Shown here: positions 35,588-37,785 of the stretch, piece by piece
How the letters are laid out: every line of letters starts with the position of its first letter
Position numbering within the stretch: position 1 is the first letter of the stretch
Assembly (NCBI RefSeq): GCF_006715635.1
Contig: NZ_VFNP01000001.1
Location: forward strand, 3,100,001-3,164,000
DNA: 64,000 nucleotides
Direction of reading: 5' to 3'
From: Streptomyces sp. SLBN-118
GTDB lineage: Bacteria > Actinomycetota > Actinomycetes > Streptomycetales > Streptomycetaceae
The notes under the pieces: model-generated
The model's input: the letters and a program-made list of their open reading frames with translations, nothing else
Databases searched by the model: none
What the model was told of the DNA's origin: nothing
Program-made: the position numbers and the translations under genes

Positions 35588-37186
35588 TTACTCCCACTCG
35601 ATGGTGCCCGGCGGCTTGCTGGTTACGTCCAGCACTACGCGGTTGACGTCCGCGACCTCGTTGGTGATCCGCGTCGAGATCTTCGCCAGCACGTCGTACG
35701 GCATCCGAGTCCAGTCCGCCGTCATGGCATCCTCGGACGAGACTGGCCGCAGCACGATCGGGTGACCGTAGGTGCGGCCGTCACCCTGGACACCGACGCT
35801 GCGCACGTCCGCGAGCAGCACGACCGGGCACTGCCAGATGTCACGGTCCAGGCCGGCCGCGGTCAGCTCCTCGCGGGCGATCGCGTCCGCCTCGCGCAGC
35901 AGGTCCAGGCGATCCCTGGTGACCTCGCCGACGATACGGATACCGAGGCCGGGGCCCGGGAAGGGCTGGCGCTGGACGATCTCCTCCGGCAGGCCGAGCT
36001 CCTGGCCGACCATCCGGACCTCGTCCTTGAACAGCTTGCGCAGCGGCTCGACGAGCTCGAACTCGAGGTCCTCGGGAAGGCCTCCGACATTGTGGTGCGA
36101 CTTGATGTTGGCGGTGCCGGTGCCGCCGCCGGACTCGACGACGTCCGGGTAGAGCGTGCCCTGCACGAGGAAGGCGACGTCCTCGCCGTGCTCGGCCTCG
36201 GCGATGATCTCGGCCTGGGCCTGCTCGAAGACGCGGATGAACTCGCGGCCGATGATCTTCCGCTTCTCCTCGGGATCGGAGACCCCTGCCAGCGCGGTAA
36301 GGAACCGCTCCTGCGCGTCGACGACCTTCAGCTGGACGCCGGTGGCCGCGACGAAGTCCTTCTCGACCTGCTCGGTCTCGCCCTTGCGCATCAGACCGTG
36401 GTCGACGTACACGCAGGTGAGCTGGGAGCCGATGGCCTTCTGTACGAGGGCCGCGGCGACCGCGGAGTCCACGCCGCCCGAGAGACCGCAGATCGCGCGC
36501 TTCGTGCCGACCTGCTCGCGGATGGCTGCGACCTGCTCGTCGATGACGTTGCCGGTGGTCCACGTCGGCTCGATGCCGGCGCCGCGGTAGAGGAAGTGCT
36601 CGAGTACCTGCTGGCCATACGTCGAGTGCATCACCTCGGGGTGGTGCTGGACTCCGTACAGCCTCTTCTCGTCGTTCTCGAAGGCCGCGACCGGCACGAC
36701 GTCCGTGGACGCGGTGACGGTGAAGCCCTCGGGCGCGGCGGAGCAGGCGTCGCCGTGTGACATCCACACGGACTGCTCGGCCGGGGTGCCCTCGAAGAGG
36801 GTCGAGCCGGTCTTGGAGACATGCAGCGGCGTACGGCCGTACTCACGCGCACCGGTGTTGTCGACGGTCCCGCCGAGCGTCGTCGCCATCAGCTGGAAGC
36901 CGTAGCACATGCCGAAAACGGGGACCCCGGCCTCGAAGATCGCGCGGTCCAGCCGGGGAGCACCTTCCGCGTACACCGAGGACGGGCCGCCGGAGAGGAT
37001 GATCGCCTTGGGGTTCTTGGCCAGCATCTCGGCCACGGGCATCGTCGACGGGACGATCTCGCTGTAGACCCGGGCCTCGCGGACGCGGCGGGCGATGAGC
37101 TGGGCGTACTGCGCGCCGAAGTCGACAACGAGGACTACGTCCGGGTTGGAGTGATCTGGCGCGGCAGCGGGGGACGCTGAGGACAC
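35588..37186 (-). CDS. guaA: GMP synthase (glutamine-hydrolysing)
   Basis: A 532-residue enzyme that converts XMP to GMP using glutamine and ATP. The class I amidotransferase domain has nucleophile Cys94 in GMCYGFQ and the His-x-Glu pair in HHPEV near residue 185. The ATP pyrophosphatase PP-loop is [14 protein letters not shown], and the C-terminal dimerisation domain ends [11 protein letters not shown], the usual GuaA terminus. GTG at 37186 has GGAAGG upstream. Confidence 0.97.
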
Positions 37187-37311
37187 TGGCGGCCTTCCGG
37201 CGGTGGGAGGGGGTCGGTTTTGTCGATTCTACCGGCGCGCCGGAGCCGCTTTTCGTCTCACCATCCGAACCGGGTTTTCGCGCTCGGCGGCGGGAGGTCC
37301 ATACTTCCCCC

Positions 37312-37383
37312 ATGCACAAGCAGCTGACCTTCGTCTTTACCTATGGCACCGGCCCGTCCGGCTGCCATGGTCGTGCTGCTTGA
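37312..37383 (+). CDS. putative leader peptide of the chorismate mutase gene
   Basis: A 23-codon ORF starting MHKQLTFVFTYGTG, with Phe, Phe and Tyr within five residues. It ends 25 bases before a strong terminator hairpin and about 105 bases before the chorismate mutase start. GGGAGG lies upstream at a somewhat long spacing. This is the arrangement of a ribosome-mediated attenuator reading Phe/Tyr supply, the end products of the chorismate mutase branch. Inference from layout; no homolog was checked. Confidence 0.55.
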   Translation: MHKQLTFVFTYGTGPSGCHGRAA

Positions 37384-37408
37384 GCCACTGACAAGCAACT
37401 TCCCAGGC

Positions 37409-37433
37409 GCCCCGGGCCGACAAGGCCCGGGGC
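37409..37433 (+). terminator. attenuator-like terminator before chorismate mutase
   Basis: A perfect 10-bp stem, GCCCCGGGCC / GGCCCGGGGC, with a 5-base GACAA loop, followed by GTTCTGTCATTT. It lies between the leader ORF and the structural gene. Confidence 0.75.
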
Positions 37434-37488
37434 GTTCTGTCATTTCCGGGCCGTGCCGCTCCGGGGCCTCCCGCAAAGGAGCCCCACC

Positions 37489-37785
37489 ATGACCGTCACC
37501 GAGCAGCCCGTCACCGAGCGGACCGGCGCCCGCACCGAGGAGGCGGCAGCGCTCATCGGCGACGCCCGCGAGCGCATCGACGCACTCGACGACCGGATCA
37601 TCGGCCTCGTACAGGAACGGATGGCGGTCTCGGCCGTCATCCAGAAGGCCCGGATCTCCTCCGGCGGCCGCCGCGTGAATCTGTCGCGGGAAATGGAGGT
37701 TCTCAGCCATTTCAGCGACGCGCTCGGAAAGCCCGGAACGGCGCTCGCGATGACGCTCCTGGAGCTGTGCAGGGGGCGGATCTGA
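37489..37785 (+). CDS. chorismate mutase (AroQ type)
   Basis: A 98-residue all-helical AroQ-type chorismate mutase, converting chorismate to prephenate for Phe and Tyr synthesis. IGDARERIDALDDRIIGLVQERMAV gives the first active-site Arg and the Asp/Arg face (quoted across two helices), with SAVIQKARISSGG and NLSREMEV supplying the remaining Lys/Arg and Glu. AAAGGAG lies six bases before the ATG. It is preceded by a leader ORF and terminator. Confidence 0.92.
   Translation: MTVTEQPVTERTGARTEEAAALIGDARERIDALDDRIIGLVQERMAVSAVIQKARISSGGRRVNLSREMEVLSHFSDALGKPGTALAMTLLELCRGRI

Follow-up and report, generated by a model that had tools for sequence, protein, structure and literature searches.

A candidate aromatic amino acid attenuator, probably read through phenylalanine and tyrosine codons, upstream of a Streptomyces chorismate mutase

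Architecture of the locus

The window, a 64,000-nucleotide stretch of Streptomyces DNA from a 7.79 Mb host genome, carries a chorismate mutase (CM) gene that is preceded by a short leader reading frame, a GC-rich hairpin, and a Shine-Dalgarno site (Table 1). An earlier note on this DNA had proposed a 23-codon leader with the residues FVFTY, a perfect 10-bp terminator hairpin, and the CM ribosome site behind it. The leader lies exactly as described and the ribosome site does follow the hairpin. The hairpin is also present, but it is longer than proposed: positions 37406-37418 pair with 37424-37436 to give 13 pairs, of which 11 are contiguous G-C and two are basal G-U. The T-rich tail 3′ of the hairpin is weak (CTGTCATTTC). 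Across the genome, the pattern FVFTYG matches exactly at this locus alone and with one mismatch at two other places, the reversed control pattern giving two matches.

Table 1. Coordinates of the features at the chorismate mutase locus, by position in the window.
Feature	Position	Strand	Basis or remark
guaA (GMP synthase), divergent neighbor	35588..37186	-	family matches; outside the switch
Predicted -10 box CATACT	37300..37305	+	sequence; 6 nt upstream of the leader ATG
Leader peptide ORF MHKQLTFVFTYGTGPSGCHGRAA, 23 codons and stop	37312..37383	+	present in 78/80 CM loci
Candidate regulatory codons TTC (F7) GTC TTT (F9) ACC TAT (Y11)	37330..37344	+	codon counts, 57 distinct leaders
Leader hairpin AUGGCA-CCGG / CCGG-c-UGCCAU	37343..37368	+	computed fold; 94% paired over 52 sequences
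Antiterminator strand CGGCCCG (37350-37356), GGC (37360-37362), GCC (37364-37366), UGG (37368-37370)	37350..37370	+	fold with ribosome at F9; co-variation
Small hairpin UGCUUG/CAAGCA, top of the antiterminator	37377..37397	+	fold; many bases invariant or nearly so in alignment A1
Switching strand: terminator 5′ arm and flanks, also the antiterminator's 3′ partner	37403..37419	+	folds; co-variation
Intrinsic-terminator-like hairpin, 13 bp, loop GACAA, weak T tail	37406..37436	+	sequence; conserved in relatives
Shine-Dalgarno site AAAGGAG of CM	37475..37481	+	sequence
Chorismate mutase, 98 aa; start codon 37489-37491	37489..37785	+	family matches

The leader ORF has no well-spaced Shine-Dalgarno site, the sequence GGGAGG ending 14 nt upstream of its ATG. 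The -10 box was assigned from conservation and spacing and no -35 element is claimed; a sigma-70 scan that requires a -35 element predicted no promoter upstream of the leader. Because CATACT lies only 6 nt from the ATG, transcription from the predicted promoter probably begins at or beside the A of this codon, so that the message is probably leaderless.

The 184-nt leader folds with a z score of -4.28, and none of 200 shuffles folds equally well. A search of the leader against Rfam returned no leader, riboswitch, or T-box above threshold, the best hit, ncS037, reaching 21 bits (E 0.82) where the gathering score is 112. In the computed fold, the CM Shine-Dalgarno site sits in a small local hairpin (37463-37485).

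The target enzyme

The CM protein matches Pfam CM_2 (30.3 bits) and two NCBIfam models above their cut-offs (PRK07857, 122.7 bits; TIGR01808, 60.2 bits) as well as the structure of Mycobacterium tuberculosis Rv0948c (2QBV, E 1.4e-13). We take it to be of the AroQ-delta type and its Streptomyces coelicolor locus tag to be SCO4784, under which no paper was found in the open-access literature. CM catalyzes the step that opens the route leading from chorismate to Phe and Tyr, and the product of the controlled branch fits the Phe and Tyr codons of the leader.

This CM is not the only one in the genome, since a second one of another subfamily (TIGR01795, 162.7 bits) is encoded at G000:C2:1733827-1734063. 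A check of the 900 nt upstream found no aromatic leader ORF before the second gene and no leader before the matches to type II DAHP synthase in the same genome (L206-L208). The same check turned up one out-of-context ORF upstream of L202, in another genome. A search of viral contigs for CM found none.

Predicted folding of the switch

Four features of an attenuator are found at the locus: (i) leader codons for the end products of the controlled pathway, as read from the sequence, (ii) an intrinsic-terminator-like hairpin between leader and gene, with a T tract that is weak in Streptomyces, (iii) a computed antiterminator that is mutually exclusive with the terminator because both use the terminator 5′ arm, and for which the recoding control described below is modest, and (iv) in the folding model, a ribosome that frees the antiterminator at the regulatory codons and blocks it at the stop.

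The terminator 5′ arm has two possible partners, the 3′ arm of the terminator and leader codons 13-20 (37350-37370). The transcript was folded with the 5′ arm and loop already made and the 3′ arm still to come, the ribosome being set at each codon in turn and hiding all bases up to 13 from the first base of the A-site codon. For the window, the predicted pairing of the 5′ arm with the leader is 0.92 with the ribosome at F7 or F9 and 0.76 at Y11, then drops to 0.28 at codon 15 and to 0.00 at the stop. The ribosome-free value is only 0.29 because the leader hairpin (37343-37368) competes. Over 123 CM leaders (L128, L163, L168, and L171 are outside the folding sets), mean pairing falls from 0.87 with the A site two codons ahead of Tyr to 0.70 at Tyr itself and 0.18 five codons further on, and is 0.00 at ten or more codons past Tyr; the ribosome-free mean is 0.35. 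In this model the aromatic codons are placed where stalling is predicted to act most, and stalling at codons further upstream also scores high (0.70-0.85). Ribosome-free pairing is already strong in some leaders (0.89 in L067, 0.79 in L149), which indicates that the quality of the leader hairpin differs among loci.

The two strands also co-vary. Matched leader and arm pairs have a mean energy of -24.12 kcal/mol versus -23.07 (sd 0.19) for permuted ones, and none of 2000 permutations of the 73 distinct pairs is as good; the sequences are related, not independent, so this is no strict probability. At arm position +1, which is the first of its variable bases, the computed folds of 121 CM elements (L229, L236, L237, and four elements with a CCTCGG arm lie outside the count) give, as arm:leader pairs, G:C in 73, G:U in 31, A:U in 13, and C:G in 1, with 3 unpaired, and the terminator 3′ arm changes in step with this position. 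When only Streptomyces sequences are compared, the helices show a weak co-variation that for the most part does not exceed that of shuffles.

Synonymous recoding of codons 12-23 (116 distinct elements, 20 recodings each, from a codon table that took in three unverified ORFs) lowers the pairing from 0.87 to 0.75. Of the 2320 recodings, 588 pair at least as well and 434 reach an energy at least as low, a modest loss which implies that the peptide and GC-rich codons by themselves account for some of the pairing potential. Ribosome-mediated attenuation, the logic that the earlier note had read from the anatomy, is supported at the level of folding: an antiterminator, an element that the note had left unnamed, is predicted to form, varies together with the terminator, and hinges on where the ribosome stands.

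The leader peptide ends in GCHGRAA, which is nearly invariant in Streptomyces and could point to stalling by the nascent peptide in place of codon supply. This conservation is largely explained by the antiterminator, since the underlying bases pair with CCAGGCGCC or form its top hairpin. Other C-termini occur elsewhere (GAIAVA, GAAVTA, SLAIVGS), and in L035 the C-terminus of the leader ORF is frameshifted while most of the RNA pairing bases are kept. Nascent-peptide stalling was rejected as highly improbable because the C-terminus varies while the pairing is retained.

Conservation within Streptomyces

One of the two refuting conditions in the earlier note was an ORF that is not conserved upstream of homologs; the leader is present at every locus examined that has this type of CM and enough upstream sequence. 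A CM protein search, blind to the leader, found at least 405 relatives, and the best 80 were kept; by their record titles, these are Streptomyces except for L016 (Microtetraspora) and L034 ([Kitasatospora]). In 78 of these 80 loci, chosen by CM similarity alone, the leader lies directly upstream of CM. The exceptions are L039, where the contig begins 89 nt before CM, and L041, where the leader is farther upstream, past a run of N. In L041, the region upstream of CM at about 1050-1500 seems duplicated around the N run, probably through an assembly fault. A GC-rich hairpin follows the leader stop in all 79 loci (the 78 and the window).

A -10-like box is kept upstream of the leader in 78 of the 80 CM loci, and the aligned loci show it without a motif filter. 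Among 100 distinct CM leaders, the box is CATACT in 75, CATAAT in 10, TACACT in 8, and another sequence in 7, a count biased by the collecting script, which demanded a loose -10-like motif. The distance from box to start codon is 6 or 7 nt in 99 of the 100.

A covariance model, R1, was built from 52 sequences (alignment A1) out of 74 distinct elements, after L039 and L041 had been dropped and identical sequences merged. R1 matches in 101 of 104 genomes of the window's genus. Two of the remaining three (G116, G174) lack this type of CM, and in the third (G496) the gene lies 99 bases from a contig end. For genus g14 of the same family, there is no strong match among the R1 matches listed, the best being partial (E 1.1e-5). 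A CM search of 12 g14 genomes gave no match in 11 and a weak one (26%) in G036. This CM is also missing from G022, G059, and G063. In G004 and G031 (genus g5), CM is present and the leader has diverged, so that R1 scored it weakly or missed it; the leader missed in G031 has His in place of Tyr.

Conservation beyond the genus

R1 matches from other genera and families were taken as three sets of 20 stretches and joined with eight search loci (L126-L133), giving 68 loci. This CM type is encoded downstream in 48 of them, and all 48 have an F-x-Y-G-type leader (46 recognized by script, L163 and L171 by eye; Gln replaces Tyr in L170), a count biased by the use of the leader model to collect the loci. 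Families f31 and f35 account for two of the 48. A terminator-like hairpin was found by script in 44 of the 48 and by eye in L128, L163, L168, and L171. Another was found by eye in L229, and the stems are imperfect in L128, L168, and L229. Matches confined to about model positions 100-142 correspond to terminator-like hairpins and were left uncounted. L225 (G478:C277), a full-length R1 match with an E value of 4.4e-6, was set aside as a false positive, having neither leader nor CM.

A check that began from CM found the leader in 11 of 11 loci, namely L194, L195 (His in place of Tyr), and those of nine genomes of families f47 and f48, which belong to the same order as the window. The nine CM loci examined in f47 and f48 come from 15 sampled genomes, and all nine have a Phe-x-Tyr-Gly leader. 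Six of them have no R1 match at CM, which makes those leaders independent of the leader model. The motifs (RFFYGY, RFSYGH, RFSYGF, RFGYGF) and hairpin sequences of the f47 and f48 leaders differ from those of Streptomyces, while a -10-like box 6-7 nt from the start, TTT before TAT (where displayed), and a terminator-like hairpin (imperfect in L229) are retained. Several boxes of f48 are poor (CAGCAT, CACCAT, CACGAT).

Leader start, frame, codons, and pairing are kept across five families (f1, f31, f35, f47, f48). GC-rich hairpins are common in such genomes, as the short R1 matches at terminator-like hairpins illustrate, and an ORF could by chance overlie the ordinary terminator of an unrelated transcript. 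The conservation in five families contradicts this reading and leaves it a negligible probability.

The terminator-like hairpins of f47 and f48 often carry a good T tract, and better tracts than that of the window are found in some relatives, e.g., GGCTTTTGC and GAGTTTTTC. These tracts bear on the mode of action of the hairpin, which might chiefly affect translation or stability of the CM message and not termination. The weak T tract of the window, the small computed hairpin that holds the CM Shine-Dalgarno site, and, in the available portions of PMC1262725, S. coelicolor ilvB and leuA leader-codon mutations with effects unlike classical attenuation would all agree with such a role. Against it, proper T tracts occur in relatives, and the Shine-Dalgarno site lies 38 nt past the terminator hairpin and is unpaired with it in the fold. 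A role chiefly in translation or stability is considered unlikely, and termination remains the preferred reading.

Candidate stall codons

An F-x-Y-G pattern, applied to the window and to the loci found by CM similarity, collected 57 distinct leaders of 23 codons, and codon usage was examined in these. Codon 9 is Phe in 57/57 (TTT in 56, TTC in one), codon 11 is Tyr in 57/57 (TAT throughout), and codon 7 is Phe in 53/57 (TTC throughout). By comparison, TTT is used 0/16 times and TAT 1/12 times in the guaA of the window, and 0/10 and 0/69 times, respectively, in 79 CM genes. The TAT usage is explicable by pairing in the leader hairpin. The last T of the F9 TTT is unpaired in the computed fold, and selection on the codon itself, or on an open stretch, is the likely cause of its conservation. 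Phe codon 9 is the steadiest candidate signal of the leader. Its invariance and the near-invariance of Tyr11 are partly built into the search patterns, so that the constant presence of Phe is a tendency and not a proof.

The contribution of Tyr is less certain, because two elements lack it (L170 has Gln and L195 has His at this position), and in both the Phe codon stays (TTC and TTT). An attenuator that answers to Phe alone is a credible alternative, held with somewhat less than even confidence. Tyr11 would then be kept because the leader hairpin is closed at its foot by the last two letters of TAT; a ribosome that has reached Tyr would, on this view, be far enough along to hide a portion of the antiterminator strand. 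A37343 and T37344, the bases concerned, are indeed paired in the fold, and the model predicts lower antitermination at Tyr (0.70) than two codons before (0.87). In addition, the Corynebacterium glutamicum leader AroR is said, in the available text of PMC11802643, to be unaffected by Tyr supply. The retention of Tyr argues the other way: it is present in 99 of 100 distinct leaders (a figure biased by the search pattern) and also in the leaders of f47 and f48, where the hairpin is altered. Sensing of Phe with a probable contribution of Tyr is the reading carried forward.

Leaders of DAHP synthase genes

A search of 296 genomes across the class gave full-length R1 matches also in family f17 and in G274 (f28). 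In 17 such loci (16 in f17, one in f28; L174-L177, L179-L187, L189, L191-L193), the downstream gene is a type I DAHP synthase. Its start and the AGPCAVE motif are in frame in 17/17, and the two proteins scanned (L187, L191) score above the PRK08673 cut-off. Codons for Phe, Trp, and Tyr all occur in the 16 f17 leaders (MQRNFWRFYGYRP... or MRTAWSFWYGDGP...; an example is MQRNFWRFYGYRPVPRTVACKALR), whereas the leader of f28 (L187) contains those for Phe and Tyr and none for Trp. TTT and TAT are retained in the 17 leaders, a -10-like box immediately precedes the start, and a terminator-like hairpin is present. GGCCC lies opposite GGGCC in 14 of the 17, and L179 and L184 show a compensated change, GGACCC with GGGUCC. 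An FWRFYGY pattern search allowing up to two mismatches finds 16 of the 296 genomes, all of f17 and with 0-1 mismatches, against five genomes for the reversed control. None of the six f17 genomes checked has a CM of the window's type.

Common descent of the DAHP synthase and CM leaders is possible. As a tentative proposal, held with less than even confidence, the CM leader may form a branch within a family of aromatic attenuators that is widespread among actinomycetes and has a Phe-(x)-Tyr-Gly core, a GGCC-type strand, and stall codons fixed as TTT and TAT. The CM branch would then occupy the window's order and a few relatives, and the other branch (MQRNFWRFYGYRP..., with Phe, Trp, Phe, Tyr, and Tyr codons) would control the type I DAHP synthase of f17.

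Relation to known attenuators

Attenuation of this type is itself classic, and the CM element appears close in logic to two known systems, E. coli pheL-pheA and C. glutamicum aroR-aroF. In the former, Phe codons of the leader control CM activity through the supply of Phe-tRNA (PMC11802643, as far as its accessible text goes); the target is a bifunctional CM-prephenate dehydratase, unlike the CM here, and the CM leader has no Rfam leader match. The latter comes from an actinobacterium; its leader has Phe-Tyr-Phe codons, precedes an aromatic-pathway gene, and is said in the same accessible text to respond to limitation of Phe, not of Tyr. The portions at hand of PMC7356990 state control of aroR by both phenylalanine and tyrosine, and PMC4046766, likewise in part, also describes the aroR leader of aroF. 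Its target is DAHP synthase and not CM, and the likeness is drawn from published descriptions. A further difference concerns initiation. E. coli pheL is translated from a Shine-Dalgarno site, unlike the probably leaderless CM leader.

The Streptomyces trp attenuator (trpL1, MFAHSTRNWWWTAHPAAH) has a leaderless leader ORF, as is predicted for the CM leader, according to the available parts of PMC8079986 and PMC1262725. Its leader strand, 5′ arm, and 3′ arm form the triple gGCC-rGCy-GGCC, which resembles GGCCC-GGGCC-GGCCC here. It differs in having Trp codons, trpE as target, and Trp as the sensed amino acid. The CM leaders of L009, L014, and L080 start with MFAHST, the first six residues of Streptomyces lividans TrpL1 as given in the accessible part of PMC8079986; a common origin of the leaderless start is possible.

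The earlier remark that attenuators in Streptomyces are best known for trp genes is fair but too narrow, as leu, ilv, ala, thr, and met leaders are also described in S. lividans (PMC8079986, portions available). None of the eight leader peptides listed in those portions is assigned to CM. A comparative study of 2005 (PMC1262725, in the parts accessible) presents attenuators or leaders for trp, trpS, leuS, ilvB, cys, and leuA in Actinobacteria and reports no conserved RNA structure upstream of Phe or Tyr operons there. No report of this element was found in the open-access full texts searched, subscription papers lying mostly outside them.

Proposed mechanism and significance

Taken together, anatomy and evolution strongly support an attenuator that would respond to Phe, with Tyr likely contributing. 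On sequence and computation, we assign a probability of about 0.88 to ribosome-mediated attenuation of transcription in which charged tRNA-Phe, and probably also tRNA-Tyr, is sensed.

Transcription would start at the ATG of the leader ORF, from the inferred promoter. With Phe and Tyr plentiful, the ribosome would trail RNA polymerase to the leader stop and cover the antiterminator strand, leaving the GC-rich hairpin to terminate transcription before CM. With charged tRNA-Phe (or tRNA-Tyr) scarce, the ribosome would halt at F7, F9, or Y11 and hold the leader hairpin open. The exposed leader strand could then pair with the terminator 5′ arm, allowing read-through into CM. In the absence of translation, the leader hairpin would form and hide the antiterminator strand, and the terminator would be expected to win. 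The response of the predicted switch to Phe and Tyr supply is presumed from the identity of the leader codons.

Because TTT and TAT are used so strictly, the element lends itself to a clean test of the idea that rare wobble codons make the sensing of starvation sharper. If the proposed family relationship is true, the f17 leader would read all three aromatic amino acids at the entry of the pathway. The CM element, matched in 101/104 genomes of the genus, would fill the Phe/Tyr gap in the lists of PMC1262725 and PMC8079986, as far as their available portions go, and constitutes a concrete candidate for a switch at the Phe/Tyr branch.
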